Positions 9,780-24,659 of a stretch of 32,046 nt of DNA are shown piece by piece. The stretch's first letter is position 1. Every line of letters begins with the position of its first letter. The stretch lies in the NCBI GenBank assembly GCA_947629405.1, contig CANRDL010000013.1:1-32046 (forward strand), read 5' to 3'. The notes under the pieces are model-generated. The model saw nothing but the letters and a program-made list of their open reading frames with translations. It was not told the DNA's origin and did not search any database. This DNA comes from an uncultured Bacilli bacterium. Lineage in GTDB: Bacteria > Bacillota_I > Bacilli_A > RF39 > UBA660. The position numbers and the translations under genes are program-made.

Positions 9780-9808
9780 AACATAAAAAATAGGTTTTAA
9801 CCTATTTA
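9780..9808 (-). terminator. Terminator at the spoIVA 3' end
   Basis: The inverted repeat AAATAGGTTT/TAACCTATTT (9788-9807) overlaps the spoIVA stop codon. On the minus strand it is followed by a short T-rich tract. Confidence 0.6.
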
Positions 9809-10921
9809 TATTACTAAAGCAATTAAATTATTAGCTCCTTTATTGACTATTTTAGTTATAGTTTTACCTAATTTATAACGAGTATTTTCTGGCATAATAG
9901 AAAGTTTGGCTTGGATTCCTTCTTTGACAATTTCATCTAAACTTCTTCCAAATATTTCACTTTTCCAAATATTAGATGGATTAGTTTCATAATCTTTCAT
10001 CAAGTAATCAATTAATTCTTTACTTTGAAGTTCACTACCAATAATTGGTTCAAAAGTAGATTCTACATCAACTTTTATTAAATGAATTGATGATGCTAAA
10101 GCATTTAATTTAACTCCATAACGGGAACCTTGTTTAATTATTTCTGGAGTTTCTAATTTCATTTCTTTTAAAGTTGGATACACAATGCCATATCCTGTAC
10201 TTTTGGCTTGTTTTAAAGCATTTTTAATTTGATCATATTCTTCTCTACCACTTGAAAATTCTTTAAATACTTTTAATAAAGAGGCTTTCGTAGCAATAGT
10301 TGATCCCATCATATTTTTTAAAACTTCATTATATAATGATGGATCACTATCAATAGAAAGAGTAATAATTCCTTCTTTAGTATCTAGTTCAGTAATTTTG
10401 GCCGTTTTTATATATTCATCTGCTTCAAAATGACTAATTATATTATCTACATCTTTAATTTTATCAACTTCAATAACACTTTCTTTTATTTTTTCAAGAT
10501 AGTGTTTCTTTATTTCATGATCATTGTCTAAAACATCTATCCATTCAGGAATATTAACATTAATTTGCATGACTGGGAATTCATATAAAGCCTTTTTTAA
10601 AATATCATAAATTTCAGTTTCATTCATTTTTTCAACACTTATAGGGACAACTGGTACATCATAAGTTTCTTTTAAATCATTAGATATTCTTAATGCTTTT
10701 TCTCCTTGAGGATCCGCACTATTTAAAATTACAATAAATGGTTTTCCCATACTTTTTAATTGACTAATTACTTTTTCTTCAGCTTCAATATATGAATTTC
10801 TTTTGATTTCACCAAAAGAACCATCACTAGTTATAACTATTCCAATTGTTGAATGATCTTTAATTACCTTTTCTGTTCCAATTTCCGCAGCTTCTATAAA
10901 AGGCATATTTTCATCAAACCA
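9806..10921 (-). CDS. spoIVA: SpoIVA, C-terminal 3' part (codons 123-492) of a split spore-coat ATPase gene
   Basis: SpoIVA is the ATPase that coats the outer forespore membrane in the mother cell and forms the basement layer of the spore coat. This part encodes FDENMPFIEAAEIGTEKVIKDHSTIGIVIT through the C-terminal RYKLGKTI...LIALVI. It closely follows the B. subtilis protein as I recall it (PFHEAAEIGTRKVIQEHSTIGVVIT; ARYKLKETL...LIAIIL). It has no start of its own: the first ATG (10906) lacks a Shine-Dalgarno and lies inside the conserved region, with homologous codons FDEN before it. The TGG at 10921-10919 is the copy shared with the N-terminal part at 22023-22021. Joined there, the gene is 122 + 370 = 492 codons in frame, with no frameshift or internal stop. 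As it stands it should not be translated; the intact 370-codon frame argues for continuing selection or a recent insertion. Confidence 0.95.
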   Translation of the reverse strand, partial: WFDENMPFIEAAEIGTEKVIKDHSTIGIVITSDGSFGEIKRNSYIEAEEKVISQLKSMGKPFIVILNSADPQGEKALRISNDLKETYDVPVVPISVEKMNETEIYDILKKALYEFPVMQINVNIPEWIDVLDNDHEIKKHYLEKIKESVIEVDKIKDVDNIISHFEADEYIKTAKITELDTKEGIITLSIDSDPSLYNEVLKNMMGSTIATKASLLKVFKEFSSGREEYDQIKNALKQAKSTGYGIVYPTLKEMKLETPEIIKQGSRYGVKLNALASSIHLIKVDVESTFEPIIGSELQSKELIDYLMKDYETNPSNIWKSEIFGRSLDEIVKEGIQAKLSIMPENTRYKLGKTITKIVNKGANNLIALVI

Positions 10922-10946
10922 CCGTGAACTTAAAAAGTGATACCTT
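10919..10946. other. Attachment site at the left end of the spoIVA element (recombinase side)
   Basis: The TGG core is on the minus strand at 10921-10919. Fifteen nt into the element begins AAAAGTGATACCT (10934-10946), a 13-bp exact inverted copy of the repeat at the other end. The outer flank is spoIVA codons FDEN. Distance and symmetry fit one arm of a large serine integrase attP joined to half of attB. Confidence 0.8.
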
Positions 10947-10981
10947 AGTGGCTAAAAAAATATGTATCTTATTAAATATAG

Positions 10982-12568
10982 TTAATCTAATACTTCACTT
11001 TTAGCAATTCTATAATGAATTTCTAATTTTTTATCTTTTGTTACATAGATTTTAGCAATTAATTTATTAAGCATTTCTTTAGTTGGATTTTTCATTTTTA
11101 AAAAGTTTTCTACTACAGTTAAATAGTCTTCTAAAACTACTGATGAATCACTTATTGAGTTTATTTCCCTTCTATATTTTTTTATTTTTGTATGGGCTAT
11201 ATTTATTTCTTCATCAGTTTGATTATATAACCTTTGGTAAGTATCAATACTAATGATACCATTAAATTTATCATCATATAATGAATCTTGTTTTAATTTT
11301 AGCTTTTCAATACTTTTAGTTAAAGTATCTATTTTCTTATTAAGTTCATTTTTAGGATTAACATAATCTTTTTTAATTATTTTGGCAAATTCTTCTTTAT
11401 CTTTCATATATTTCAAAGATAATTCACTAATTTTACATAAAATAGTCTTTTCGAGTTTTGTATAATTCATATAATGAGAGAAACATATACCATATTTACT
11501 AAACTTTCTATAATTGTTACAATTCATTGTTATCCGGTTTCTTTTTTTATCATAACTAATGCTCATTTTTGCACCACAGTCTTTGCAATAAATAAAATCC
11601 GATAATATATATTCTACATTCCTTCTATTTTTATTATAATTATTTGCTTTATCCTTAATTTGTTGAGCTAAATTAAAAGTTTCTTTACTAATTAGTGGCT
11701 CATGAGCATGTTCTTTTATGCACCATTCACTTTTAGCTACTTTTTTTCTTTTCTTAATTTTATAATTTATATTTTGAGAAGTATGTTGTATAAGAACTCC
11801 AGTATATATTGGATTTTTAATAATGTTTCTGACAGAACAATGTTTCCATATTTGCGGATGGTTACATTTTATTAAATTTTTTTCTTTATTCTTTAACATA
11901 ATAGGCGTTGGTATTTCTTCTTTAGTTAAAATTTCCGCAATTTTAGAACTACCATAGCCACTTATATATAAATCAAATATTTTTTTTACTATTGGAGCAG
12001 TTTTAGGATCAGGTATCAATTGATGTTTATTATCTGGATGGCGCATATAACCATAAGATGGAACACTACCACAAAACTTTCCATCTTTTTTCATTTGCAG
12101 TAAATTAGAACGAACTTTTTTAGATATATCTTTAGCATACATATCATTCATACTTAATTTAAACGGCATCATATCACTACCACTTGTTTCATAAAAAGTA
12201 TCTATATCATCATTTACAGCAATATATCTAATACCTTTTTCTGGAAAATAATTTTCAACATAATATCCTGTTTGAATATGATCTCTACCTAATCTTGACA
12301 AATCTTTAGTAAGTATCATATTTATACGATTATCTTCTATATCTTTGATTAATCTTTTAAACTCCGGACGATTAAAATTACCACCAGAATAACCATCATC
12401 TACATATTCATCAACTACATGTAGCCCATTTGCTTTTAAATAACCCATTAATAAACATCTTTGATTAGTGACTGACTCACTCTCTAAATCATCACCATCT
12501 TCTCGAGATAATCTTATATATAAACCAATTTTATAATTAATATTGTCATTATTGTAATGCCTATACAT
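10982..12568 (-). CDS. Large serine recombinase (site-specific integrase/excisionase of the spoIVA element)
   Basis: This 528-aa enzyme should cut and rejoin DNA at the element ends through a phosphoserine linkage. The resolvase-type catalytic domain (about 13-155) has the nucleophile Ser21 in YIRLSREDG, and the conserved DLSRLGRDH (89-97) supplies the active-site arginines. A recombinase domain follows (about 170-290; GSVPSYGYMRHP, NPIYTGVLIQ). A zinc ribbon has Cys328, Cys331, Cys350 and Cys362, and a Lys/Glu-rich coiled coil (about 395-470) is typical of this class, where it controls synapsis and directionality. The DGDDLESESVTNQR segment is typical of TnpX/TndX-like and related clostridial recombinases. 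It looks intact, ends 60 nt from the left attachment site, and its start overlaps the 41-aa ORF by 8 bp, so the two are translationally coupled. SpoIVCA (skin) and SprA (SPbeta) play the equivalent role in B. subtilis. Confidence 0.95.
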   Translation of the reverse strand: MYRHYNNDNINYKIGLYIRLSREDGDDLESESVTNQRCLLMGYLKANGLHVVDEYVDDGYSGGNFNRPEFKRLIKDIEDNRINMILTKDLSRLGRDHIQTGYYVENYFPEKGIRYIAVNDDIDTFYETSGSDMMPFKLSMNDMYAKDISKKVRSNLLQMKKDGKFCGSVPSYGYMRHPDNKHQLIPDPKTAPIVKKIFDLYISGYGSSKIAEILTKEEIPTPIMLKNKEKNLIKCNHPQIWKHCSVRNIIKNPIYTGVLIQHTSQNINYKIKKRKKVAKSEWCIKEHAHEPLISKETFNLAQQIKDKANNYNKNRRNVEYILSDFIYCKDCGAKMSISYDKKRNRITMNCNNYRKFSKYGICFSHYMNYTKLEKTILCKISELSLKYMKDKEEFAKIIKKDYVNPKNELNKKIDTLTKSIEKLKLKQDSLYDDKFNGIISIDTYQRLYNQTDEEINIAHTKIKKYRREINSISDSSVVLEDYLTVVENFLKMKNPTKEMLNKLIAKIYVTKDKKLEIHYRIAKSEVLD

Positions 12569-12686
12569 TACTTTTTCCTTTCTTAGACAATATTACATTT
12601 TTAATGTAATAATTATGAATACAACTTTTTAATATATCTTTTAAATTATTTCCATCTACGGCATAAAACTCTTCTATTTCATACAT
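12561..12686 (-). CDS. 41-aa ORF coupled to the recombinase
   Basis: I do not recognise this peptide (MYEIEEFYAVDGNNLKDILKSCIHNYYIKNV...). The ATG at 12686 follows GGAGG by 8 nt, an excellent ribosome-binding site; the longer frame upstream (MFFFFFLVH...) would read through a terminator hairpin and is rejected. Its stop overlaps the recombinase start by 8 bp, so it is the first gene of a two-gene recombinase operon. Small proteins encoded beside large serine recombinases can be recombination directionality factors (SprB of SPbeta is one), so this is a candidate. It could equally be a leader peptide that only couples translation. Confidence 0.65.
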   Translation of the reverse strand: MYEIEEFYAVDGNNLKDILKSCIHNYYIKNVILSKKGKSNV

Positions 12687-12711
12687 AGATTTATCCTCCG
12701 TTATCATAAAA

Positions 12712-12719
12712 ATTGTATG
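12712..12719 (-). promoter_or_regulatory. Sigma-E-like -10 element of the recombinase operon
   Basis: CATACAAT on the minus strand (12719-12712) equals the B. subtilis sigma-E -10 consensus as I recall it (CATACA-T). It lies 26 nt before the 41-aa ORF start and directly after a terminator. The -35 position falls in a pyrimidine run with no good match, and a sigma-A reading (TTGTTC, 20-nt spacer, TACAAT) is also poor, so this is a suggestion only. Confidence 0.35.
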
Positions 12720-12723
12720 AACT

Positions 12724-12772
12724 AAAAAAAAGAAAAAGAACAATGTTATATTTATTAGACATTATTCTTTTT
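12724..12772 (-). terminator. Hairpin separating the cargo operon from the recombinase operon
   Basis: Arms AAAAAGAACAATGT (12733-12746) and ACATTATTCTTTTT (12759-12772) pair with one mismatch around a 12-nt loop. On the minus strand a long T run follows. It would stop cargo transcripts before the recombinase. Confidence 0.65.
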
Positions 12773-12809
12773 TTAATTTAAATATTTTTGAAATATTTAC
12801 ATAAATTTA

Positions 12810-12845
12810 TTTTAAAAAAAGTAGATTATTTATGTAATCTACTTA
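12810..12845 (-). terminator. Terminator of the thioredoxin-like gene
   Basis: The inverted repeat AAGTAGATTA (12819-12828) and TAATCTACTT (12835-12844) overlaps the 3' end of the gene and is followed on the minus strand by seven T residues. With the hairpin at 12724-12772 it forms a double block. Confidence 0.75.
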
Positions 12846-13392
12846 ATAGTTTTTTCTTCTTAATTATTAAACCTGCACCTATAAGCAAACAAATACTAAC
12901 AATAACTATGATAACTTTTATAAAAACAGAAAATTTTTTTTGTTGATTATAAATACCTTTATTTTGTGCTATACAATCTTTAATATCTTCATTTTTTCGT
13001 ATTTTTGATACTACATCACAATAATCACTTGTATTTTCATAAGATTTTATTGCTTCTGTTAGATTTTCTTTAATTTTATTGTTGAATCCAATAAAGTAAT
13101 TAGTTCCTATTATAATTAAAGGAGTATCTTCTTTTTTTATATTTAATGCTTCTCTAAGTTTTTTGTTCAATTCTTTATTACTATCAACTTTAATATATTC
13201 TGGTCTAACACGATTGTTGTCTTTTAAATGTTGTTGTAAAAATTCTTTTCCTTTATCACAATTATTACAATTATCTTCATAAATGAAATATACTACAATG
13301 TTATTGTAAGAAGAGTTAGTTGCAAGTGCCTTTGATGTAGTTGGTAAACATAAAAGTACTAGAAGAAAAAACATATATAATAGTTTTTTCAT
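12826..13392 (-). CDS. Secreted membrane-anchored thioredoxin-like protein
   Basis: The 188-aa product has an N-terminal signal peptide (about residues 1-25), an extracellular thioredoxin-like domain with a redox Cys pair C42-N-N-C45 in VVYFIYEDNCNNC, the family's beta-strand/cis-Pro region (EDTPLIIIG), and a C-terminal membrane helix (about 158-176) followed by KKKK. It is therefore predicted to be held on the outer face of the membrane, thiol side out. Two further Cys (about 129 and 139) lie before the membrane helix. It is the last gene of the cargo operon, 53 nt after the giant secreted protein, so it may act on the folding or disulfides of its neighbours; that is inference. The ATG follows GGAG with good spacing. 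Confidence 0.8.
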   Translation of the reverse strand: MKKLLYMFFLLVLLCLPTTSKALATNSSYNNIVVYFIYEDNCNNCDKGKEFLQQHLKDNNRVRPEYIKVDSNKELNKKLREALNIKKEDTPLIIIGTNYFIGFNNKIKENLTEAIKSYENTSDYCDVVSKIRKNEDIKDCIAQNKGIYNQQKKFSVFIKVIIVIVSICLLIGAGLIIKKKKLLSRLHK

Positions 13393-13408
13393 TTTATCTC
13401 CTTATATT

Positions 13409-13447
13409 TTAAATAAAGGTGTAATGTCGTCATCACACCTTTATTTT
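13409..13447 (-). terminator. Hairpin between the giant-protein gene and the thioredoxin-like gene
   Basis: A 12-bp inverted repeat, AAATAAAGGTGT (13411-13422) with ACACCTTTATTT (13434-13445), overlaps the stop of the 2317-aa gene. The minus strand has no clear T run after it, so it may attenuate or protect the message rather than fully terminate. Confidence 0.5.
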
Positions 13448-16400
13448 ATTCTGAATATACAGTTGATCCTGTATGTTTTTCCCACCATTTGATTCCTTTG
13501 TTATAAAAATCAATGATATCTTGTTCAGTAAGAGCTTTGTCATTTTCTGCTAAAAATTCTTTTGGTGCTTTTATTTCAGTTGAATTTACATTTTCAAAAG
13601 AAACATTAAATGTATTATCTGAACTTTTTTGACTTGTTTTTATGCTCTTTATATATTGTTCATTATCATCTAGTTTAATTTCAACTTCTACTATTTCATT
13701 TAAAGCCCATTCAGCAGAACTATATTTTGAGTTTGAAAGATAATTCTTTTTTACCCAATCATTATATTTGTCTCTATTTAAAGTTGCTATATAAGTATGC
13801 TCTTTTCCTTCAGCTAATTTTACCTTATCTATAGCATTGATGTAAGTTTCTCCCATAACATCAGTTAGCATTGTAACTTCTTGAATAGCACGACCTACTT
13901 GAATTGGATGAATATATTCCCAATCATTGATATATACTTTTCCTTCTTCATGTTTAGTTTGTTTTCTTGTTACTACACTAACTTTAGAATCTTCTTTTCC
14001 AACATATTTTAAAGAGAATGTATATTCTTCTACATTATCTTTAGTTGACGTTAAATGAGTTAAACCTAATTCACTATTATATTTATAAGTAAATTCTTCA
14101 GTATAACCATTTATATGATTATCTTTTTTTACTGTAAAACTCTTAGAATTTAATGTGTTTTTTGCTGCTGCATTAACCTTTTCTTCTAAAGTTTCTACAC
14201 CACTATAATCAATTGTATATGTATTATCTGTTTTTTTATCACCATTATAATCAATAGCAATATTATAAACTTTTCCAGCTTCATTATTGATTTTTGAAGA
14301 TTTTATAGCTTCCAAGTTTAATTTCATAGTATTAGCACTACTTATTACTGCTACACCATTATTACTTTTTAAAGAATATAAATATTTCTCACTATTTTCA
14401 TTTGGATCTGTAACAGTTACTGTAGATACTCTATCATCAAATTTACTTGATGTTAAAGTCAATGGTAAATAAAATTTACCATCATCACTTTGACTTACTA
14501 ATCCAGAGTATTTATTCCCATTTTTAGTTAAACCTGAAATAGTTGCAGACTCAGGAACATTTGAAGGAACCATTTCAATTTGATTTATAAAAGTTAGTCC
14601 TGTTACACCTTGTGGGGCTTTTTCATAAGTTTTTCCATCTTTGTCTATATAAGTAACTTTAACTTTTGATAAATCTGCATCAAGTAAAATACTACCAAAA
14701 TCTTTGTTTTCATCACTATATTCAACAGCAATGTTTATATTAGAATTATTTGCTAAAGATATATTTGCTTTTGTACCTGATGCATCTTTTTCAAATTTAA
14801 TAGCATAATCATTTTCATTAAATGTATTACTATTTATTTTAATATTATCGTCTTCTTGTAAAATATTTTCAGAAGAAAATTTGCTAATAATTACTGCTGT
14901 TTTCTTTAAATCTTCTGAAGATAATTGTCTAAATGTGTTATAAGAAATATTGGAACCTGTAGCTAGTTCGTTAGCAACATAAATATAACCTTTATTAAAT
15001 TTATTACCACTATTGTTAAATGTTGACCACCTAATATCGACAATAGACTTATTATTACCATGATAATAAATAGCATAATCAACAGCATCCCCAGAATTAT
15101 TAATAACACATTGCCACATTGAAACATCTTGTGCATTTCCTGTTATATCAATTAATGCATTATTGCTTGAACCTTGAGTAAATTCCAAATTCAAACGAGA
15201 TAAGAATACATTATCTGCAGAAATTTTAATGTTTCCAACTTTAATTTTTGAAATTTCAGGTTTACCAATAATTGAAACTGATCTAGAAAGATTAATTTCA
15301 GGCATTACATTAGTCATATCAATTTCATTAATTGTATCAATATATATTTCAGTTATTTCTTGGTTTTCAAGTGCTTCTTTTAAAGCAGTTGCAGTTGTAA
15401 CTTTAGTAACATTTTTAGGTAATGATACCTTATATGAAGAATAATAAGTTTTATCATCTGTTGCTTTTAATTCGTCTTTTTGAACAATACCTTCTGGTAA
15501 TGTTGAATAATCTCCATTTCCATCATAAACTGTCTTATCTCTTGATTCAGTAAATCCTAGTAATTCATAAACATTGCCATCATAAGTAAGCTTATAAAAT
15601 GCTTTAAATACACTCTCTGGTGGTAAAGAAACTTTCTCATTATAATAATTGTAACTTACAAATTTTAAAATTTGACGCCCCTCATAATTATGGAAAATAG
15701 TCTCATATATTTTAGAATTGTTAGAATCATTGTAGTAATTATAATACTTATAATCAAGATCTTCTTCTTTGACATCACCGTAACTTCCAACAACTTTACT
15801 ACTATATTTTGTTATTTTCTCTTTTGTAACTCTTAGTGCCGTTTTAGATTCTTTGTCTTTTAAATCAACTTTTGTATTTTCTTTTTCTGCTTTAACTAAT
15901 GGTTTATTATAGTGTTCACTATCAAATGTCATATTTGATGCTGTTAAACTAGCACCATCTTTAACTTCAATACCAGCTTCAAATGATTCAGGGATAGAAT
16001 CACTATGTGTTATTTTTACCCCTGCTGTAGTTAATGAACCATTTTCAACAATAATTGCTTGGTTTTGAGAATTTTTTAATTCAATATTCTTAATAGTTAC
16101 AGCATTGCTTTTAACTGTAAATATTGTATTTACACCACTTCCAGCAGTAATAGTGTAACTACTAGAACCGCCATCTATTTCTACTTTTCTTTCAATATCT
16201 ATAGTTTTATCAACTTTGAAATTATCGCCTATAAATATATGTTCTGCCTTACTACTTAATGCATTTTCTAATTCTTGTTGTGTTTTAACAACAACCATAT
16301 CTGATTCAAATGTAAACTTGTAATCAGTTGGTACTTCTATATTACTTGCAAGTGAAATTCCTTGTTGAGCAGGTGCTTTTACAAGTGTAACTGTTTTTGA

Positions 16401-19400
16401 AACTTTTTCTGGATTAAATTTCAATGTGAAGCTTTCATATCCTTCTTTATTAGCAAGGTCACTTAAAGTTACATCTTCATCAGTTTTACCATCAAAATTT
16501 TCTTTTAATATTTTTGAGTATAATTCTTTTGCACCATCTTGAATTGCTTTCTTTAATTGTGCTTGGTCTTCTATACCATTTTTTGTAAATGTTTTTTCTT
16601 CTCCATTAACTGATAATGTTATTTCGTTAATTTCTTCTTTTGATAATATATAAGCTATTGCCCCTGGAATGCTTGTATCATTCATTCTTGATAATTTAGT
16701 TGTAGGATCAATTACTGTAATAGTAATTTCTCCACTATTTTCTACATAATCTTCGATTTTAAATTCACTACTAAAGTCTTCTGATTTTGAATCTTCTGTT
16801 TTATTTAAATCTTCAAGAACATCAGCTATAAATTTATCTGAATACAAATTCCAATGTGGTTCTAAAGTTATATTATCTTCTGTATCAGAAGTAATTACTG
16901 TACCTACAATATTTGTACCTTCTTCATTTGCCCAATAAGCAAAATTATGATATGAATCAGAAACCTCTGGTGTATCTTCTGGTAACATATCTTCTGTAAT
17001 TGTATCACCATCATATACTGTTAAACCTGTTTTTAGCCCATTAAATGTTAATTTATGTGCTTCTTCAAAGCTTAATTTACTATAATCAATTGTATATTCA
17101 TATGGTAAGAAGGCATCTCCATCTCCATCAAAATCGATTTCATATTTAATTTTCTTATCAGAACTATCATCTAATCTAAATAAAACCATTACCCAACCTT
17201 GTTCATATTCCTCAGAAGTTGGTTCATAAGTTTTTTTAACTTTACTTTCAGTATTTAATATTAATTTCCAAGTATTTTTATAATCTGCAAACCAATCTTC
17301 ATCTTTTGGAACTGATATTTTAATAGGTACAAAATATCCTTTATTATTTGTAAAACCACTTTTTAAAGTTTGTTCTTTAATTGTACCTTCAATTCCTTCA
17401 ATATAAGGTTCTATATCAGGTTGTTCCGCATTTAATTTATCTTTTACTTCATCTACTGTTGTTGAATCAAAATCATATCCTTCTAGTTCTTTTTTCTCTG
17501 GAGAATTATCATCTAAATTTTCTGTATCTAATAAAGCAAAACTAGCGCCAGAAGAAGAATCTTGAAATTTCAATTCACTATAATCAATTGTTACTGTATA
17601 AGGAGCATATTCCTCTTTATCCTTACCATCTAAATCAACTGTTATCGTAAAATACTTGTCTTCAGGAGCTACTGGAGAGCCATCATCATTAGCAGCCCTT
17701 AAAGCTTTTAAAATATATAATTCTTTATTACTATAAAAATCATGATCAAATATATCAATTGCTGATTCAGTTTCATCATTTTCATCATGGAAGAATTTAA
17801 CATTAATTGTATCTTCATCAATTGAACCATCTGGTCCCATATTTTCTGGAGCATTTGTTAATTTTAAAAGTAATCCCAAGTAATAAAGAACATGATCTGA
17901 TTCAAATGGATTCTCGTTATCTTCCCATTCTTCATCTGTAAATATTGGAAGTACTCCACTTACTTTATAAGTATTAGCTTTTTCTGGATCTAATTCTACT
18001 TTAGTATAATAGCCTTCTTTAGTAAGCCATCCATCATCAACAAATTGACTACCATCTTTAGAATCTAACCCTTCGATTGTAAATAATGATGATTTTTCAA
18101 AAGTAAGTTTGCTGTAATCTATTGTTACTAATGTAGGTAAATATTCATCACCTGTACCATCATAATCTACACTGTAATATAATTTACAATTTCCAGAATT
18201 AGTTTTGCATTTAGGATCTTCTGTGAATTGATAAAGAATTGTTAAACTATTATCTTCTTTGTCATATTCACTTTCCTTAAACGTTTTTTTAACATTTCCA
18301 CTGCCATTTAAATTATTGTCAGTTAAACGTGATATTTTAACATTTTCAGGTTTTACACCTTCTGGTAATTTAAAGGTAAAATCAAAATAGTATCCTGTTT
18401 TTTCAGCAAAAACATTATCATTAAGTACTTGTTCAACTAATTTACCTTCTAATGTATAATTTCCATCAGTTCCAGAAATTTTAACGCCTGAATTAACTTC
18501 AGATTTATAACCATATCCTTTTAATTGTTCTTTATCAGTTGCTGATGCACCATCAACTTTAACTTCAGCAATTGTTTTTTCTTGAAGTTTTAATTCACTC
18601 CAATCAAATGTAATTGTATATGGAGCATACTCTTCTCCGTCTCCATCCATATCTACTATAATTTCAAATGTTCTATCTGTAGCTTTTTTATCAAGATGCC
18701 TTAAAATATAAAGTACATCTTTTCCATCAAAAGATTCAGATGTAATAGTTTTACCTTCTTCTCCTTTATGGATAAATTGAACAGTTACTTTATCACTTCC
18801 ATTAGTTGTTTTATCTAAAGTTTTAATTACAAATGGTAAGTAATATCCTGTTGCTTCATCATCTTCAAATGGTTTTTTACCTTCTTCAAATGATTCTAAT
18901 ATTGGTAATAATCCTGTTACTTTTACAGTTGTTCCTGTAGTATCAAATTTAACATTAAATTTACTTGGTTCTGTCCAACCATAAGCTGTATCAAGTGCAG
19001 TCTTTCCAGATTCATCAATAGATTCTACACTAAATTTAGATGATTTTTCTAAAATTAAGTCTTTTAAATCAATTTCGTAATCAACTGGGAAATATTCATC
19101 GCCATCTTCACCATCTAAATCAACTGTTATTGTAATTGGTTTACTTTTATTGGCATCAGATGTAGAAAATAAAATAGTTACACCAGTTGAATCGGTAATT
19201 TTGCTTGTTTTATTACCCTTATTTCCAGGATATGTAACAGTTGCTTTATTATATAAACTTTCATCAATATTTTGCCCAACACTTAATAAGAAATAAAATC
19301 CTGTTTTTTCATCTTTTGAGAAAACATTTTCATTGATTTCTTGTTGAACAATAGTACCAGTTAATTTATATTTATTAGCACCATCAACATCTTTTAATTC

Positions 19401-20399
19401 ATAAGTATCTGCTGAACTTTTAGTGTATCCCCAATCTTTTGAGATACTTTCAACATCTGCTGTTGGAAGATCTTTTGTTGTTAAATTCATTTCAGATTTT
19501 TCTTGAAATTTTAACTCACTTAAATCTAATTTATATTCAGTTGCAGCATATTCATTTTTTTCAATATCACCATCAACATCTACAGTTATAGTAATTTGTT
19601 TATCAGCACTATCTTCCCAATCTTTCTTATCAATTGGTAATAATATAACAATACCTGGTGTCCCACTTTGAACATCAAATTCATTCCAAGTAGCTTTCTT
19701 TGTTTCACCATTTAAATTTGTTATTGTTATAATGGTATTTTTATTAGCTTCTGGCACTTCCACAATAGTAGCAAAATAATATTCTTCATCAGCGTATTTT
19801 TCATCATCTTCATCATTAAAATACAAGTCAGTATGAGATTTCTTCAATAATAAACCAGTTACTTTATTATTTTCTATTTTTACTTTAGCATCTTTTGCAT
19901 AAAATGTATCAGTTTTAAAATTTAATTTATCACTTAATACATTTTTATAAGTTGAGTATTTACTATCTTCTATGTCTGCAGAAAGTGTTGCTTTCGATTT
20001 TTCAAGGATATGATGCATATCAATCCATTTTACATTAAATTTACTAGGTATTTTCTTTGTTCCTAGTACATTCTTACCTTCTTTCCAACCAATTGGATTA
20101 TAATTTTCATCACGCTTTCTTTCAATTTGATATATAACCGCTTGTGATAAATCAGTTGGATTTTCTAATTTTAAACTTGTAGCTGCAATAATTAAATCTT
20201 CTTGGTGAATATTATAATTTGACGTAAATGCATATTCTCCAAGAATGTAAACATAACCGGCATCTGGTTGTATTTTACTTGCTTCTTCACCTAATTCATC
20301 AATACCCATTTCTCTTGCCAAAACTGATACTGAAGATATAAAGAAAGCTAATAAAGTAAATATAAATAATTTAGAATATTTTTTCATACATTTATTCAT
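13446..20399 (-). CDS. Giant (2317-aa) secreted repeat and beta-helix surface protein
   Basis: The product begins with a signal peptide (about residues 1-28, ...ISSVSVLA-RE). Residues ~30-1100 hold six degenerate repeats of about 155-175 aa, each ending in an acidic DxDGxxxxEY(A/F/L)P...(I/L)D(L/Y)S(E/K)L block (near residues 270, 425, 581, 741, 920 and 1086); a late related copy is IDYNGDKKTDNTYTIDYSG (near 2043). The acidic loops resemble Ca-binding loops, but this is unproven. An InlB-type B repeat (Flg_new: LTFNGLKTGLTVYDGDTI...FAYWANEEG...LEPHW) lies at about 1105-1180. Two right-handed beta-helix (pectin-lyase-like) regions follow, near 1376-1490 and 1670-1850, with stacked VxIxN-type strands. 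No LPXTG motif or C-terminal membrane anchor is seen, so it is released or held through partners. It starts 9 nt after the upstream anchored protein gene. An adhesin or surface role is inferred from the architecture. Confidence 0.9.
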   Translation of the reverse strand: MNKCMKKYSKLFIFTLLAFFISSVSVLAREMGIDELGEEASKIQPDAGYVYILGEYAFTSNYNIHQEDLIIAATSLKLENPTDLSQAVIYQIERKRDENYNPIGWKEGKNVLGTKKIPSKFNVKWIDMHHILEKSKATLSADIEDSKYSTYKNVLSDKLNFKTDTFYAKDAKVKIENNKVTGLLLKKSHTDLYFNDEDDEKYADEEYYFATIVEVPEANKNTIITITNLNGETKKATWNEFDVQSGTPGIVILLPIDKKDWEDSADKQITITVDVDGDIEKNEYAATEYKLDLSELKFQEKSEMNLTTKDLPTADVESISKDWGYTKSSADTYELKDVDGANKYKLTGTIVQQEINENVFSKDEKTGFYFLLSVGQNIDESLYNKATVTYPGNKGNKTSKITDSTGVTILFSTSDANKSKPITITVDLDGEDGDEYFPVDYEIDLKDLILEKSSKFSVESIDESGKTALDTAYGWTEPSKFNVKFDTTGTTVKVTGLLPILESFEEGKKPFEDDEATGYYLPFVIKTLDKTTNGSDKVTVQFIHKGEEGKTITSESFDGKDVLYILRHLDKKATDRTFEIIVDMDGDGEEYAPYTITFDWSELKLQEKTIAEVKVDGASATDKEQLKGYGYKSEVNSGVKISGTDGNYTLEGKLVEQVLNDNVFAEKTGYYFDFTFKLPEGVKPENVKISRLTDNNLNGSGNVKKTFKESEYDKEDNSLTILYQFTEDPKCKTNSGNCKLYYSVDYDGTGDEYLPTLVTIDYSKLTFEKSSLFTIEGLDSKDGSQFVDDGWLTKEGYYTKVELDPEKANTYKVSGVLPIFTDEEWEDNENPFESDHVLYYLGLLLKLTNAPENMGPDGSIDEDTINVKFFHDENDETESAIDIFDHDFYSNKELYILKALRAANDDGSPVAPEDKYFTITVDLDGKDKEEYAPYTVTIDYSELKFQDSSSGASFALLDTENLDDNSPEKKELEGYDFDSTTVDEVKDKLNAEQPDIEPYIEGIEGTIKEQTLKSGFTNNKGYFVPIKISVPKDEDWFADYKNTWKLILNTESKVKKTYEPTSEEYEQGWVMVLFRLDDSSDKKIKYEIDFDGDGDAFLPYEYTIDYSKLSFEEAHKLTFNGLKTGLTVYDGDTITEDMLPEDTPEVSDSYHNFAYWANEEGTNIVGTVITSDTEDNITLEPHWNLYSDKFIADVLEDLNKTEDSKSEDFSSEFKIEDYVENSGEITITVIDPTTKLSRMNDTSIPGAIAYILSKEEINEITLSVNGEEKTFTKNGIEDQAQLKKAIQDGAKELYSKILKENFDGKTDEDVTLSDLANKEGYESFTLKFNPEKVSKTVTLVKAPAQQGISLASNIEVPTDYKFTFESDMVVVKTQQELENALSSKAEHIFIGDNFKVDKTIDIERKVEIDGGSSSYTITAGSGVNTIFTVKSNAVTIKNIELKNSQNQAIIVENGSLTTAGVKITHSDSIPESFEAGIEVKDGASLTASNMTFDSEHYNKPLVKAEKENTKVDLKDKESKTALRVTKEKITKYSSKVVGSYGDVKEEDLDYKYYNYYNDSNNSKIYETIFHNYEGRQILKFVSYNYYNEKVSLPPESVFKAFYKLTYDGNVYELLGFTESRDKTVYDGNGDYSTLPEGIVQKDELKATDDKTYYSSYKVSLPKNVTKVTTATALKEALENQEITEIYIDTINEIDMTNVMPEINLSRSVSIIGKPEISKIKVGNIKISADNVFLSRLNLEFTQGSSNNALIDITGNAQDVSMWQCVINNSGDAVDYAIYYHGNNKSIVDIRWSTFNNSGNKFNKGYIYVANELATGSNISYNTFRQLSSEDLKKTAVIISKFSSENILQEDDNIKINSNTFNENDYAIKFEKDASGTKANISLANNSNINIAVEYSDENKDFGSILLDADLSKVKVTYIDKDGKTYEKAPQGVTGLTFINQIEMVPSNVPESATISGLTKNGNKYSGLVSQSDDGKFYLPLTLTSSKFDDRVSTVTVTDPNENSEKYLYSLKSNNGVAVISSANTMKLNLEAIKSSKINNEAGKVYNIAIDYNGDKKTDNTYTIDYSGVETLEEKVNAAAKNTLNSKSFTVKKDNHINGYTEEFTYKYNSELGLTHLTSTKDNVEEYTFSLKYVGKEDSKVSVVTRKQTKHEEGKVYINDWEYIHPIQVGRAIQEVTMLTDVMGETYINAIDKVKLAEGKEHTYIATLNRDKYNDWVKKNYLSNSKYSSAEWALNEIVEVEIKLDDNEQYIKSIKTSQKSSDNTFNVSFENVNSTEIKAPKEFLAENDKALTEQDIIDFYNKGIKWWEKHTGSTVYSE

Positions 20400-20408
20400 T
20401 CCTTTCTT

Positions 20409-21341
20409 TTATCTTTTCACCACTGTTGCAGTGACTACTGTTCCATTTGATAATTTTAGACTTGCTTGACTTCCACCAGAATTTACTACAGTTGATGAAA
20501 CAGAACCTTGATCTTTTCCAACTGGTGTACCATTATAAGTAAAACCTAAATAATCAGTAAAATTAGAACCATCTTTTTCTACTCTAAAATCGTATTGGAT
20601 TGCTCCACCAGCAACAGCTAATTCTCTTTTTGTTAAATAAATAATATAAGAAGGTTCTTTAGGTTGTTCTTGTTGTTGTCCTCCATTATTACCAGAATTT
20701 CCATTATTAGAATTTCTTACATTATGTTTGGTGCCACTCTTACTGCTAGAAGTATTTTGTCCTGTTTCATTTTTTGAACTTTCTTCTACTACTTCTTCTT
20801 CAGTTATAGTAACTTCTATAGAAGAACTATATCTACCATCTTTAGATTTTACAGTAATTATTACTTTACCTTTTTTAAGACCTTTTATATTACCATTTTT
20901 ATCAACTATTGCAATACTTTCATCACTAGATGAATATATTAAGTCTTTTTCACTTATTCCATTAGGTAATTTTAATATTTCAATTTTTTCTTGTTGGCCA
21001 ACATTCAAAACCATTTTCTTATTTAAATTAATACCATTACTCCAATGAGCTTTCAAAGTAATATTTTTAGTTATTTTAGTATTAAAATTAAATAATTTAT
21101 TTTTATAATACCAACCATCAAAGTAATATCCATCTTTAGTAGGATCCTTTGGTTTTTTTATTTTTTCATTTTCTTTTACCTCAATAGCTTTTACAATAGT
21201 TCCACCATCAGAATCGAACTTAACAGTATATTTTTTTATTGCACAACCTTTAATTAATAAAAAGATAAGAACAATTAAAATTAAAATACCAATTATAACC
21301 CCCATTTTTATTTTAGTTGTTTTTTTAGATTTATCTTTCAT
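20409..21341 (-). CDS. Membrane-anchored surface protein with InlB-type repeat and Ig-like domain
   Basis: The 310-aa product has a short cytoplasmic Lys-rich N-terminus, one membrane helix (about residues 14-32) and an extracellular part. That part holds an InlB B-repeat (YTVKFDSDGGTIV...DGYYFDGWYYKNK...LKAHW, about 36-100), a BIG2-like immunoglobulin fold (residues ~105-180; SSDESIAIVDKNGNIKGLKKGKVIITV), a low-complexity Ser/Asn/Gly/Gln linker (about 185-225), and a C-terminal beta-rich domain (about 225-310). The ATG at 21341 is chosen because AAAGGTGA lies just before it; an ATG ten codons earlier has no Shine-Dalgarno. It is first in the cargo operon and shares the InlB-type repeat with the giant protein that follows 9 nt later, which suggests they work together at the surface. 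Confidence 0.85.
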   Translation of the reverse strand: MKDKSKKTTKIKMGVIIGILILIVLIFLLIKGCAIKKYTVKFDSDGGTIVKAIEVKENEKIKKPKDPTKDGYYFDGWYYKNKLFNFNTKITKNITLKAHWSNGINLNKKMVLNVGQQEKIEILKLPNGISEKDLIYSSSDESIAIVDKNGNIKGLKKGKVIITVKSKDGRYSSSIEVTITEEEVVEESSKNETGQNTSSSKSGTKHNVRNSNNGNSGNNGGQQQEQPKEPSYIIYLTKRELAVAGGAIQYDFRVEKDGSNFTDYLGFTYNGTPVGKDQGSVSSTVVNSGGSQASLKLSNGTVVTATVVKR

Positions 21342-21648
21342 AACTTCACCTTTCACTTCCTTATAAATCATAGTAATGTTTCTAATTTATCATATGAAAA
21401 AATCACTTAAAGTTTAAGCAAATAATTTTTTTATTAAATTACCACTCCTTTTAAATAAAATAACAATTGATAAAAATTTCCTACATCTACATAAATTTTA
21501 ACATTGATGAAAGGTTTAGTCAATGAATAAATCTTTAATTATATAAGGAACTAAGTTCAATGTCTTTATCACAGTTATTATAAAGAATTTAATGTAATAT
21601 TTTTTTATAATGTTTAATAATTATCAGCTAAAATATTTTTTTTAAAGT
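21342..21648. promoter_or_regulatory. Divergent intergenic region between the cargo operon and XRE regulator
   Basis: This 300-nt AT-rich stretch holds no ORF that can be supported. A TATAAT -10 on the plus strand (21606-21611) fits the XRE gene, but no good -35 lies 16-18 nt before it. For the minus-strand cargo operon no clear sigma-A pair was found; TATGAT/TAAATT-like sequences near 21385-21400 are possible. The layout suggests that the XRE protein binds here and controls both directions. Confidence 0.4.
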
Positions 21649-21663
21649 TTGGAGGCGAAGCAT

Positions 21664-21960
21664 ATTAATTTAGAAAGCAAAGATATTTTGGCAATAAATC
21701 TTAAATATTATAGACATCTAGCAAAATTATCCCAAGAAAAATTTGCCGAAGCAATAGATACTAGTCTAATTTATATTAATCAATTAGAAAAAGGAAAAAG
21801 AAATACATCTTTGGAAATGTTAGATAGAATATCAATAAGTATTTCTAATTTATTGGGAAAAAACATTTCAAGTTCTGAATTAATTGCCTATGATGAAGAA
21901 AAAATTATTATTGCTAAAAGAATTGATGAAGTAAAAAAGAGTCAACAAATTAATTGTTGA
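21664..21960 (+). CDS. XRE-family helix-turn-helix regulator carried by the element
   Basis: A small Cro/C1-type HTH protein. ILAINLKYYRHLAKLSQEKFAEAIDTSLIYINQLEKGKRNTSLEMLDRISISI shows the full five-helix fold: SQEKFAEAI is helix 2 and the TSLIYINQLEKG segment the recognition helix. A short Lys/Glu-rich tail follows. The start is unusual. GGAGG (21651-21655) is followed at normal spacing by ATT (21664) in frame, with no ATG, GTG or TTG there; the in-frame TTG at 21649 overlaps the Shine-Dalgarno and the next TTG (21688) is too far away. An ATT start giving 98 aa is proposed. It is divergent from the cargo operon and convergent with spoIVA. It is clearly related to the regulator at 23069-23317, outside the element. 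Confidence 0.85.
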   Translation: MNLESKDILAINLKYYRHLAKLSQEKFAEAIDTSLIYINQLEKGKRNTSLEMLDRISISISNLLGKNISSSELIAYDEEKIIIAKRIDEVKKSQQINC

Positions 21961-21966
21961 CCTTTT
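21941..21966 (+). terminator. Terminator of the element's XRE gene
   Basis: The stem GTCAACAA/TTGTTGAC with a 5-nt loop (21941-21961) overlaps the stop and is followed by CTTTT. It ends transcription before the right attachment site and the convergent spoIVA segment. Confidence 0.6.
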
Positions 21967-21996
21967 AATTATTTTATAATTTCTTGTTCTAAAATT

Positions 21997-22023
21997 AGGT
22001 ATCACTTTTAGGTATACATCCCA
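21997..22023. other. Attachment site at the right end of the spoIVA element
   Basis: AGGTATCACTTTT starts at 21997 and is a 13-bp exact inverted copy of the left-end repeat. Fifteen nt separate AGGTATCAC from the core CCA (22021-22023, TGG on the spoIVA strand), the same distance as at the left end. The outer flank is the spoIVA codons ...VKTP(W). Confidence 0.8.
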
Positions 22024-22386
22024 TGGAGTTTTAACCATACGAGGGTTTCCATCCTCGTCTTCAAATCCCGTTGCTCCATCAACAATATAACCTACACAAT
22101 CAATGAGTTTAACATTTGCTTGAAAATCATCAATTTTAATATTAGCGCCAGTTGATGGAACAAATTTAGGTTCTGTAGTCATAATTGCTTTACCTTGAGC
22201 ACTTTGAGGTATTTCATCTAAACATCTTTTTTTCTCGTATTCATCTTCAATATTAGGTACTACTAAATTTTCGATAAATCTTTTAATAAATGTTGACTTA
22301 CCACTTCTAACTGCTCCAACTACTCCTAAATATATTTCGCCATTACCATGATGTGCAATGGACTCTAATATTTTTTCCTTTTCCAT
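22021..22386 (-). CDS. spoIVA: SpoIVA, N-terminal 5' part (codons 1-122) of the split gene
   Basis: This segment encodes the start of the spore-coat morphogenetic ATPase SpoIVA: MEKEKILESIAHHGNGEIYLGVVGAVRSGKST, with the Walker A motif at about residues 24-32 and Lys30 as the nucleotide-binding lysine, then DEIPQSAQGKAIMTTEPKFVPS (switch/sensor region) and LIDCVGY, a Walker B-like Asp96. It tracks B. subtilis SpoIVA residue for residue as I recall it, up to KTPW (residue 122). The ATG at 22386 follows GGAGTG by about 6 nt. In the integrated state the frame runs 44 codons into the element (DVYLKVIPN...) to a stop at 21880, giving a 166-aa truncated protein with an ATP site but no polymerising domain. 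The homologous continuation lies at 10918-9806. It begins 58 nt after the SpoVIF-like gene and has its own sigma-E-like promoter. Confidence 0.95.
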
Positions 22387-22414
22387 AAAATTCACTCCTA
22401 TCAATTTATAGTAA

Positions 22415-22443
22415 AATTTATGAATAAAAGAAAAATATTATTA
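22415..22443 (-). promoter_or_regulatory. Sigma-E-like promoter of spoIVA
   Basis: On the minus strand TAATAAT (22443-22437), a 14-nt spacer and CATAAATT (22422-22415) fit the mother-cell sigma-E pattern (KMATATT, 14-15 nt, CATACA-T), with one mismatch in each box. It starts right after the SpoVIF-like stop and 28 nt before the spoIVA ATG. B. subtilis spoIVA is a known sigma-E gene. Confidence 0.55.
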
Positions 22444-22444
22444 C

Positions 22445-22687
22445 TTAAAACATTTTTTCAACATTTTTAGGTACTTTATCTTGAAGAATAGCATTGACAA
22501 TTTTATCCTCTTTTTCTTTAGAAACCTCTTTTTTAGTCATTGTACTTAAAGTTCTTATTACTTCTCGTAATGTTTTTTCATCTTTTAAAGAATTTTTTTG
22601 TAATTTTTCAGCTAAAGAAATAATTGTATCTTTATCTACATTTGTTTTTTTCTCTACTTTTTTAAAAAAATCATCTTTAAACTTCAT
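22445..22687 (-). CDS. spoVIF: SpoVIF-like sporulation protein
   Basis: The 80-aa product (MKFKDDFFKKVEKKTNVDKDTIISLAEKLQKNSLKDEKTLREVIRTLSTMTKKEVSKEKEDKIVNAILQDKVPKN...) resembles the stage VI sporulation protein F family, small proteins linked in B. subtilis to coat assembly and spore resistance under sigma-K control. Shared features are the N-terminal FF-x-K-V/L-E-K-K-T start, the 'LKDEKTLRxxI' centre and the late 'P-K/x-N' segment. The match is from memory of the family, so the name is probable rather than certain. The ATG at 22687 follows GGAGG. A sigma-K-type promoter precedes it, and it lies directly upstream of spoIVA, which supports a sporulation role. Confidence 0.75.
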   Translation of the reverse strand: MKFKDDFFKKVEKKTNVDKDTIISLAEKLQKNSLKDEKTLREVIRTLSTMTKKEVSKEKEDKIVNAILQDKVPKNVEKMF

Positions 22688-22705
22688 TAAAAAAACCTCC
22701 TACAA

Positions 22706-22732
22706 TAGTATATGTAAAAGATTTCATTTGGT
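22706..22732 (-). promoter_or_regulatory. Sigma-K-like promoter of the spoVIF-like gene
   Basis: On the minus strand AC (22732-22731), a 16-nt spacer and CATATACTA (22714-22706) match the sigma-K consensus (AC, about 16 nt, CATAnnnTA). GGAGG follows 10 nt later. The -35 box is only two bases, so the -10 carries the weight. Confidence 0.5.
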
Positions 22733-22733
22733 T

Positions 22734-22928
22734 TTAATCATAAAAAATATCATCCGGTTTAAGATTGAAAATTTTACTTATTTTTTTGGCCATTTTATAG
22801 TATAAATTTCTATGACCATTTTCGATTTTCCAATAATGAGCTTTAGTTATTCCCAACAATTTTGCCATTTCTTCACATGTATAATTATTATCATGGCGCA
22901 ACTTAATTAATTTTTCTAATTTTTCCAT
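22734..22928 (-). CDS. Small XRE-family helix-turn-helix regulator
   Basis: A 64-aa single-domain HTH protein: MEKLEKLIKLRHDNNYTCEEMAKLLGITKAHYWKIENGHRNLYYKMAKKISKIFNLKPDDIF is a complete Cro/C1 fold with CEEMAKLLGI as helix 2 and KAHYWKIENG as the recognition helix, closing with the usual LxPDDIF. The ATG at 22928 is used; a TTG three codons earlier is possible. No strong Shine-Dalgarno is visible, but a strong promoter gives a leader of only about 20 nt. It is divergent from the XRE gene at 23069. Its target is unknown; proximity to spoVIF and spoIVA makes control of that cluster possible. Confidence 0.8.
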   Translation of the reverse strand: MEKLEKLIKLRHDNNYTCEEMAKLLGITKAHYWKIENGHRNLYYKMAKKISKIFNLKPDDIFYD

Positions 22929-22956
22929 ACTACACAAACACTACTTTCTAAAATTT

Positions 22957-22985
22957 ATAATATCGTATTTTATAATCAAAGTCAA
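22957..22985 (-). promoter_or_regulatory. Sigma-A promoter of the 64-aa XRE gene
   Basis: On the minus strand TTGACT (22985-22980), a 17-nt spacer and TATTAT (22962-22957) lie about 29 nt before the start codon. Confidence 0.7.
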
Positions 22986-23068
22986 CTTGTAAAGTTATAA
23001 CTAGGTAGACTTCCTATAAATTTATTAATAATATTAAATTGGTAAATATTGGTAGTCGGAGTTGTTTT

Positions 23069-23317
23069 ATGAAGTTAAAAAATATTATCGCAATTAATTT
23101 AAAATATTATAGATATCAAGAAAATTTAAGTCAGGAAAAATATTATACTAAATATGGATTAAGTCCTAAATATTTAGCAGCAGTTGAAAGAGCAGAAATT
23201 AATTTTACAGTTGATTTTTTAGAAAATCTTGCAAAAACTTTAAAAATTAATGTTAATGATTTAATAACTTATAATAAAAATCATATTATAAATAAAAAAA
23301 GAATAGATAATAAATAA
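23069..23317 (+). CDS. XRE-family helix-turn-helix regulator, paralogue of the element-borne one
   Basis: An 82-aa Cro/C1-type protein. The ATG at 23069 follows GGAG by 8 nt; a longer frame from 23039 would read through that site. It shares IIAINLKYYRYQENLSQEK at the N-terminus with the element regulator (ILAINLKYYRHLAKLSQEK), and the same closing phrase (LITYNKN...KKRID versus LIAYDEE...AKRID), so the two are paralogues. The middle has diverged, including the recognition helix (YGLSPKYLAAVERAE against IDTSLIYINQLEKGK), so DNA targets probably differ. It lies about 1 kb outside the right border of the element, on the strand opposite to spoIVA. Confidence 0.85.
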   Translation: MKLKNIIAINLKYYRYQENLSQEKYYTKYGLSPKYLAAVERAEINFTVDFLENLAKTLKINVNDLITYNKNHIINKKRIDNK

Positions 23318-23331
23318 TATCTATTTTTTTT
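23302..23331 (+). terminator. Terminator of the 82-aa XRE gene
   Basis: The stem AATAGATA (23302-23309) and TATCTATT (23318-23325) is followed by seven T residues on the plus strand and overlaps the stop codon. The convergent der gene ends at 23346. Confidence 0.75.
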
Positions 23332-23345
23332 ATAAAATAACCTAC

Positions 23346-24659
23346 CTATTCTTCATTTTTATTTTTAAATTGCATAATTATAGGAGTACCTTGTAAATCA
23401 AAATTTTCTCTTATTTTATTTTCTAAATATCTTTCATAACTAAAATGAATTAAGCCTTTATTATTTACAAAAAAAGTAAATTTAGGAGGCATTACTCCAG
23501 TTTGAGAAACAAAATAAATTTTTAATCTTTTATTTTTATATGATGGTGGCATATGAAGTTTTACAGCATCATTAATTACATCATTTAATAAAGAAGTTTT
23601 AATAGTTTTCGTATAATTTTGATAAGCACCTACAATTAATGGCATTAATTTACCAACTTTTTCTTTTTTTAATGCTGATAAAAATACTGTATTAGCATAA
23701 GGAATAAATTGAAAATTATTTTTTATTTCTTCTTTCCATTTTTTCAAACTTTTTTCTTTATCTTTTATTAAATCCCATTTATTTATTACTAAAACAATTG
23801 CTTTATTTTCAGATATAGCATAAGAAACAATATGCTTATCATGTTCGATAATTCCCGTATTAGCATCAATTACAATAACACAGACATCACTTTTAGTTAT
23901 TGCCTTTATTGATCTAATTAGACTATATTTTTCAATTGCTTCATCAATTTTACCTTTTTTTCGCATTCCAGCAGTATCTACAACTTTAAATTTTTGACCA
24001 TTATATGTAAAAGAATCTTCAGTAGCATCTCTTGTTGTTCCCGCAACATCACTTACTATTGCTCTTTCTTTATCTAATAATGCATTAATTAAACTACTCT
24101 TTCCAACATTTGGTCTTCCGATTACACAAAAATTAATATAGTCATCATTACTTAAGGTTTTGGTTTCCTTAAAATTTTCTACTACTTTATTTAGTAAATC
24201 GTTTATACCCTTATTGTGTTCAGCACTGATAGGTATAACTTCTTCAAAACCTAAAGAATAAAATTCATACAAATCATTTTCGCGATTTTTATTATCAATT
24301 TTATTTACAGCTACAATAACTTTTTTTTGACTTTTTAATAATAAATCTCGTACTAGAAGATCATCAGATGTAATACCCGTTTTAACATCAACAACAAATA
24401 TAATGACATCGGATTCTTCAATAGCAATATTGGCTTGAATTTTTATTGATTCATTAAAATTCCCAGAGCCGCTTTCTATTCCCCCAGTATCTATAAGTAA
24501 AAAATTATAATTTAAATAATTAACATCTCCATAAATACGATCTCTAGTAACACCAGGAGTATCTAATATAATTGATTTTTTTTCTTTAATCAAACGATTA
24601 AACAAAGTACTTTTGCCAGTATTAGGTTTACCAATTAAACATACTGTTTGTTTTTTCAT
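23346..24659 (-). CDS. der: Ribosome biogenesis GTPase Der (EngA)
   Basis: Der is the essential double-GTPase that matures the 50S subunit. The 437-aa protein has two G domains in tandem. The first has GKPNTGKST (about 10-18), DTPGVTRD and NKID; the second has GRPNVGKSS (about 180-188), the matching DVAGTTRD, DTAGM and NKWD. A C-terminal KH-like domain follows (about 350-437; PPKFTFFVNNK, ENKIRENFDLQGTPI). Length and motifs are normal. The ATG at 24659 follows GGAGG by 8 nt. It is the last gene of a minus-strand set with the pseudopilin and engB; each has its own Shine-Dalgarno and a gap of about 55-60 nt. Confidence 0.98.
   Translation of the reverse strand: MKKQTVCLIGKPNTGKSTLFNRLIKEKKSIILDTPGVTRDRIYGDVNYLNYNFLLIDTGGIESGSGNFNESIKIQANIAIEESDVIIFVVDVKTGITSDDLLVRDLLLKSQKKVIVAVNKIDNKNRENDLYEFYSLGFEEVIPISAEHNKGINDLLNKVVENFKETKTLSNDDYINFCVIGRPNVGKSSLINALLDKERAIVSDVAGTTRDATEDSFTYNGQKFKVVDTAGMRKKGKIDEAIEKYSLIRSIKAITKSDVCVIVIDANTGIIEHDKHIVSYAISENKAIVLVINKWDLIKDKEKSLKKWKEEIKNNFQFIPYANTVFLSALKKEKVGKLMPLIVGAYQNYTKTIKTSLLNDVINDAVKLHMPPSYKNKRLKIYFVSQTGVMPPKFTFFVNNKGLIHFSYERYLENKIRENFDLQGTPIIMQFKNKNEE

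Follow-up and report, generated by a model that had tools for sequence, protein, structure and literature searches.

Intervening elements in sporulation genes are known as scattered cases in cultured spore formers, and the targets named in the excerpts of four reports in PubMed Central (PMC) that were drawn on are sigK, spsM, gerE, spoVFB, spoVR and yabG (PMC5025042, PMC4191935, PMC5595907, PMC10747680). The skin element of sigK, in Bacillus subtilis and as skinCd in Clostridioides difficile, interrupts a sporulation gene that acts in the mother cell, and it encodes a serine recombinase; that of skinCd is CD1231, and excision requires the directionality factor CD1234, a 72-residue protein described in the same excerpt as being under sigma-E and SpoIIID control (PMC5025042). 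The gin element in gerE of Bacillus cereus ATCC10987 is an intervening element without phage genes that also has a serine recombinase, gene reconstitution being reported to need the serine recombinase GirC together with GirX (PMC5595907, in part). SPbeta in spsM, vfbin in spoVFB, vrin in spoVR and yin in yabG are likewise intervening elements in sporulation genes, and where the excerpts show excision, it is brought about by a serine recombinase (PMC4191935, PMC10747680). The present analysis concerns a 32,046-nucleotide stretch of DNA from an uncultured bacterium of the family UBA660, order RF39 (contig CANRDL010000013.1; the whole stretch is referred to as the window), in which spoIVA is split at codon 122 by a unit of 11,102 bp with TGG at either end. 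That spoIVA is split by an element whose precise removal would restore the gene is confirmed, and it is very probable that this is a skin-like sporulation gene-intervening element.

The split spoIVA gene and its junction

A preliminary description of the locus, made from the sequence alone, had named spoIVA as the split gene. Both halves indeed carry SpoIVA Pfam domains, the SpoIVA_ATPase model being divided between them (Table 1). The 5' part ends in the residues RMVKTPW, codon 122 being a copy of the TGG core, and the 3' part begins FDENMPF; joined by script they give 492 codons with no internal stop, and TIGR02836, the SpoIVA model, is 492 positions long. Over its 492 residues the joined protein shares 93.9% identity with the SpoIVA of G001 (locus L002), a genome of the same genus in which the gene is uninterrupted, with 121/122 residues shared in the 5' part and 341/370 in the 3' part.

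The predicted restoration of the gene by precise removal was borne out by alignment to this uninterrupted relative, the kind of comparison that had been proposed as a check. Window positions 22021-23909 align with L002 1866-1 and 9380-10921 with L002 3400-1864, and because these segments overlap, exactly 3 bp (TGG) are common to both junctions. Removal at this short core would give back a 492-codon gene matching that of the intact congener. Der, a helix-turn-helix (HTH) gene, SpoVIF and HU lie around spoIVA in L002 as in the window. A second intact spoIVA, named beforehand as an observation that would tell against the reading, was not among the matches: no spoIVA pieces beyond these two were found in the window's genome, a 1.13-Mb assembly whose completeness of 88.7% makes a second copy unlikely rather than impossible. 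The split goes beyond chance, since the same codon and the same end sequences recur across genera.

Table 1. Features of the split spoIVA gene and its intervening element (window coordinates)
Feature	Position	Strand	Basis or remarks
spoIVA 3' part, codons 123-492 and stop	10918-9806	-	SpoIVA_ATPase model positions 127-237, SpoIVA_middle, SpoIVA_C; empty-site alignment
TGG core copy, 3'-half end of element	10919-10921	- (CCA on +)	3-bp overlap against empty site
att (attachment site) arm GGTATCAC, 15 nt from core	10937-10944	-	C-side arm; 20/24 genomes with fetched junctions
Large serine recombinase, 528 residues, adjoining spoIVA 3' half	10982-12568	-	Resolvase, Recombinase and Zn_ribbon_recom domains
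Open reading frame (ORF) of 41 residues overlapping recombinase start, candidate recombination directionality factor	12561-12686	-	Small-ORF conservation, alignment
Sigma-E-like promoter box TTGTTCTT-16-CATACAATT of small-ORF/recombinase operon	12711-12743	-	Score 14.0; motif from spoIVA upstreams
Cargo: secreted/membrane protein, 188 residues	12826-13392	-	Weak glutaredoxin match under cut-off
Cargo: secreted protein, 2317 residues	13446-20399	-	No Pfam match at E 0.01
Cargo: membrane protein, 320 residues	20409-21371	-	Listeria-Bacteroides repeat and Big_2 domains (Pfam)
Cargo: HTH regulator, 103 residues, TTG start	21649-21960	+	HTH_3 match
att arm GTGATACC, 15 nt from core, mirror image of GGTATCAC	21998-22005	-	N-side arm; 16/24 genomes
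TGG core copy, 5'-half end of element, codon 122	22021-22023	- (CCA on +)	3-bp overlap against empty site
spoIVA 5' part, codons 1-122	22386-22021	-	SpoIVA_ATPase model positions 1-123; empty-site alignment; joined frame
-10-like box CATAAATTT of spoIVA	22414-22422	-	Score 16.3; this upstream is in the motif training set

Recurrence and movement across genomes

A SpoIVA match was found in 341 of the 386 genomes of the window's family. The 53 genomes with at least two or only partial matches (the window's genome added) were searched again, and many held one piece ending at about codon 122-130 and another beginning at about codon 120. Junction DNA was then compared for 37 loci and the window, picked for a split-looking spoIVA rather than from all 341 spoIVA-bearing genomes. 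Within this sample the same element, which the preliminary description had suggested seeking in relatives, was recovered at codon 122 by its C-side arm in 20/24 genomes (window included) from 17 genera, as tallied by hand, and the N-side arm was present in 16/24, the N side being unfetched for G022, G357 and G370. By chance the arms matched once (C side) and not at all (N side) in 30 intact loci. Three of the four genomes lacking the C-side arm (G003, G141 and G190) have contigs that end at the core, and the fourth, G170, has a one-letter variant arm on the N side only. Each arm is located 15 nt inside the element from its own TGG, and the element ends stay similar while host codons vary between genomes. 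With mirror-image arms at both ends, a circle closed at TGG would carry a symmetric attP-like site.

The recombinase tells the same story. Recombinases 69-100% identical to that of the window occur in 18/386 family genomes, the next level of identity being 44%. When 84,980 species were scanned, each represented by one genome, 39 loci reached 59% identity or more, and in 35 of them the 3' half of spoIVA follows the recombinase directly; in the other four (L122, L128, L140, L149) the contig stops short of the junction, at it or just past it. spoIVA is absent from all 52 loci whose recombinases are more distant (no more than 50% identical in the lists). The spoIVA-type loci lead to 23 genomes, of which 17 hold split pieces only (two of these only the 3' piece), three full-length spoIVA only and three a full-length gene plus a piece. 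Elements read whole in a single locus span 3.1 to 13.9 kb. The halves lie ~32 kb apart on one contig of G399 and ~44 kb apart in G397 (both on G397:C9:17442-62999), and from the latter distance some elements at the codon-122 site would be far larger.

Several apparent variants were set aside. 3' halves beginning near codon 93 (e.g. G315, G111) are probably alignment run-on into the element end, as the arm and TGG are at the usual place, and upstream stops in G395, G397, G401 and G403 fit such run-on. G282 proved intact, and partial matches explained by a contig end or by a break in the frame at another place (e.g. G292, G324, G252, G100) were left out of the counts. In L078 (G346), L079 (G172) and L112 (G191) the gene is interrupted near codon 400-405 by a serine-recombinase element of another type; G346 carries both types, so that its spoIVA is in three pieces. 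The promoter motif described below scores 5.7 at the ORF before the recombinase of this codon-400 element, and no claim is made on its excision.

It is also clear that the relationships of the element do not follow those of its hosts. Over 496 pairs from 32 hosts, the identity of the recombinases bears no relation to that of the SpoIVA 3' halves (Spearman -0.04). Recombinases are >95% identical in 15 pairs, in 11 of which the SpoIVA 3' halves are <75% identical, and identical recombinases occur in hosts whose 3' halves are 62-75% identical. The element therefore moves between hosts and lands at the same codon; to judge from these comparisons it is horizontally mobile, with codon 122 of spoIVA as its putative attB in many hosts, and several copies are apparently recent transfers.

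The clean frame of the 3' part had been attributed beforehand either to selection or to recent insertion, and it seems that both apply. There is no stop in the window's 3' half, nor in any of the 32 across hosts. The suggested comparison of the two halves with an intact homologue gave, for window and congener, a ratio of nonsynonymous to synonymous divergence (omega, Nei-Gojobori) of 0.066 in the 3' half, at a synonymous divergence (dS) of 0.78, and 0.004 in the 5' half, although much of this divergence may predate the insertion. In the same-genus pair G222/G370 (L134/L152) the 3' halves have dS 0.675 and omega 0.06, and the recombinases dS 0.717, which fits an insertion as old as the host split with the 3' half under purifying selection. 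This is a single pair, full-length spoIVA is present in two other members of the genus (G105 and G305), and there may instead have been two separate insertions of related elements.

The recombination operon, its putative promoter and related targets

The serine recombinase expected within the element adjoins the 3' half. By profile its nearest solved relative is the catalytic domain of TnpX (2mhc), and the CcrB, XisF and CcrC models match it far under their cut-offs. These sequence relatives serve transposons (TnpX), staphylococcal cassette chromosome (SCC) cassettes (CcrB, CcrC) and a cyanobacterial element (XisF), not spoIVA. A small ORF lies ahead of the recombinase in the window and in 34 of the 39 spoIVA-type loci, as recognized by one regular expression. 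It is a candidate directionality factor.

A two-box motif (TTGTCATA, spacer 15-16, CATATATTT) was learned from random starts on 70 non-redundant upstream regions of intact and split spoIVA, the window included. It resembles the sigma-E promoter consensus. The box stands 18-24 nt before the small ORF in every distinct upstream sequence (24 of 24, representing 35 elements), each scoring above at least 98 of 100 shuffles, and within 330 nt upstream of the recombinase the threshold was reached in 36/38 spoIVA-type loci. Among control genes with a ribosome-binding site the score was reached in 2/142, and in 0/142 at the same distance; in the window it was 2.2 or less for the HU, Der and polC genes, for the recombinase and for each of the three cargo genes scored. 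Mother-cell expression of spoIVA is established for B. subtilis. It is a sigma-E target in C. difficile according to the excerpt of PMC5025042. Nine sigma-factor matches were found in the window's genome and six identified: RpoD, a SigK above cut-off, and SigE-, SigG-, SigF- and second SigK-like matches below their cut-offs. Spo0A is above cut-off and a SpoIIID-like match below, and sigK is intact. Sigma-E is the putative regulator of the operon.

The threshold was also reached, within the same distance, in 19/50 other recombinase loci, so the genes beside those recombinases were examined. Many other recombinases (~31-46% identical, mostly from Clostridia metagenome-assembled genomes) directly precede the 3' part of a polysaccharide deacetylase, for which the best profile is PdaA (TIGR02884) with the L160 segment and PdaB with that of L154. 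The pdaA family is one of spore-cortex genes. In 19 of 23 such genomes there are separate PdaA N (~1-97) and C (~92-223) pieces, two have the C piece only and two a near-full-length pdaA. Three loci were read through; in these GGAAATCATAC is common to both halves, and joining them would give ..GHIVGNHTVNHKSMP.., which is how the uninterrupted gene of L269 reads. Among 27 pdaA-type loci hand-picked from L154-L192, an ORF of 39-45 residues precedes the recombinase in 19, with a box scoring at least 10.7 in 18 of these 19. Loci of this set (e.g. L304, L305, L306) have the layout of the spoIVA elements, with box, small ORF, recombinase and 3' half in that order.

Other relatives (~43-44%) occur within the window's own family at L211/L264 (G305), L221/L266 (G080), L210/L263 (G001) and L214/L265 (G016). 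Directly after the L211 recombinase comes the 3' part of a gene resembling a LysM amidase, and the recombinases of L221, L210 and L214 lie, by eye, near LysM/amidase or SleB-like genes. In L212 and L213 (42% relatives) the recombinase adjoins an apparent 3' part of a P-type ATPase gene and is preceded by a 46-residue ORF.

The cargo varies from element to element and, named by eye, includes Fic-like, AbiE-like, DnaJ-like, ATPase-like and giant secreted proteins. The 2317-residue secreted protein occupies most of the window element, and that of L120 encodes a secreted protein of 2740 residues at the same position. No phage-type families were found among the window-element ORFs scanned against Pfam and NCBIfam (the 2317-residue ORF against Pfam only). 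The G+C content of element (26.0%) and flanks (25.6%) is near-equal.

Excision, rival explanations and known systems

Contigs ending exactly at TGG were found for both halves in G003 and G190 and for the 3' half in G141 and G291, and G141 has the intact junction on another contig. This suggests, indirectly, that two states coexist, an argument from assembly rather than a read count. Intact and split spoIVA in one bin was considered as further evidence and dropped, since flanks of the two forms, where comparable (L114, L146, L252), are only 67-83% identical and the copies look like other strains or mis-binning. In the same comparison no match was obtained for L122 or L128, and one of only 31 bases for L149, whose contig is cut inside the recombinase. 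G009, which has full-length spoIVA and a truncated 73% recombinase, belongs with these mixed bins. Two IMG/VR matches to the attP pattern have no recombinase and no spoIVA beside them and look like chance. In viral contigs there are five loci with relatives of the recombinase, at 29-33% identity.

A number of observations weigh against a skin-like element. The excised-circle (attP) pattern was found in 0/386 family genomes, and in six of 23 genomes full-length spoIVA accompanies the element contig, though as noted above this coexistence proves nothing. The small ORF is not a recognised directionality factor and is shortened in the window, where its 41 residues are fewer than in most relatives (38-73), and its homology between the spoIVA and pdaA groups is not demonstrable (hhalign probability 6%). 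SpoVIF, a neighbouring sporulation gene, has a motif score of -2.5, the box is lacking in L145 and L146, and some ~43% relatives adjoin genes without a known sporulation link (P-type ATPase-like; by eye).

The rival that survives best, though an unlikely one, is an ordinary serine-recombinase island at a conserved spoIVA site, in hosts whose sporulation has been lost or inactivated, with the 3' half open as insertions are mostly recent and with no developmental excision. Copies with identical recombinases that look like recent transfers, the ~43%-identity recombinases beside other genes and the lack of an excised junction in the 386 genomes would be expected of such an island, and the excerpt of PMC10868615 describes the order RF39 as a mixture of species predicted to sporulate or not. 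It does not sit easily, however, with a sigma-E-like box on the recombination operon of 24/24 distinct elements, with G222/G370 as an old insertion with a constrained 3' half, with 0/32 broken 3' halves, with a sister clade in a second sporulation gene, or with a host that has sporulation sigma factors. A reversible switch, with random excision and reinsertion in a fraction of growing cells as bet-hedging and without mother-cell control, is very improbable: the box is that of spoIVA rather than of any housekeeping gene tested, and the presence of sister recombinases in a sporulation gene would be left unexplained, even if the contigs of four genomes that end at TGG suggest two states per sample and the excerpt of PMC10747680 has the C. 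botulinum element yin excised at every time point. All compared family genomes are draft assemblies with frequent contig breaks near the junction, but the exact 3-bp junction against an empty site, the many separate assemblies and the single contigs that carry both halves (window, L116-L120, L143, L153, L074 and L075) leave a negligible chance of an assembly or binning artefact.

The skin-like reading, already put forward in the preliminary description, is supported by the recurrence, the att arms, transfer with an open 3' half, the sigma-E-like box, the host sigma factors and the pdaA sisters. According to this reading the element would stay in codon 122 in growing cells and the spore line and be inherited. 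In the mother cell active sigma-E would transcribe both spoIVA and the small-ORF/recombinase operon, and the small protein, acting as directionality factor, would enable the recombinase to recombine attL with attR at the TGG core. Excision would release an 11.1-kb circle and restore the 492-codon spoIVA when it is needed for the spore coat platform, while the spore would retain the element; as the mother cell dies, excision there would cost the element nothing. We infer both the excision and its restriction to sporulating mother cells.

More broadly, it is reasonably likely that these are members of a compact, horizontally spreading class of elements (the smallest seen ~3.1 kb) with a sigma-E-driven operon of small factor and recombinase, acting as a DNA-level intron removed once per spore, with exchangeable cargo, and occupying essential mother-cell genes at no cost, at codon 122 of spoIVA in reduced-genome gut Bacilli and in pdaA in gut Clostridia. 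One recombinase clade addresses spoIVA, an early essential spore gene, in at least 17 genera of tiny-genome gut bacteria. If the reading is true, programmed DNA rearrangement would be routine in the sporulation of gut commensals, genome surveys that take a split spoIVA or pdaA to mean loss of sporulation would be mistaken, and breaks in contigs at these sites may be traces of excision. The elements would offer a testable case of mobile DNA rendering itself harmless via a doomed cell type.

Searches of the open-licence PMC literature, preprints excluded, listed no report of an intervening element in spoIVA or pdaA. Compared with skin the target is spoIVA, not sigK, and excision is predicted from sequence; the small ORF overlaps the recombinase within a single operon, while skinCd has in CD1231 a recombinase that is, in the excerpt, expressed in growing cells too (PMC5025042). 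The gin element, as described in the excerpt, is 28.6 kb with three recombinases and occurs in one strain (PMC5595907), in contrast to one recombinase, 3.1-13.9 kb and many genera here, and SPbeta, vfbin, vrin and yin have other target genes and are, in their excerpts, prophages or prophage-like (PMC4191935, PMC10747680). The principle is that of skin; what is apparently new is which gene is targeted, how wide a range of hosts is involved, the compact form with everything in a single operon, and that the same codon is occupied repeatedly.

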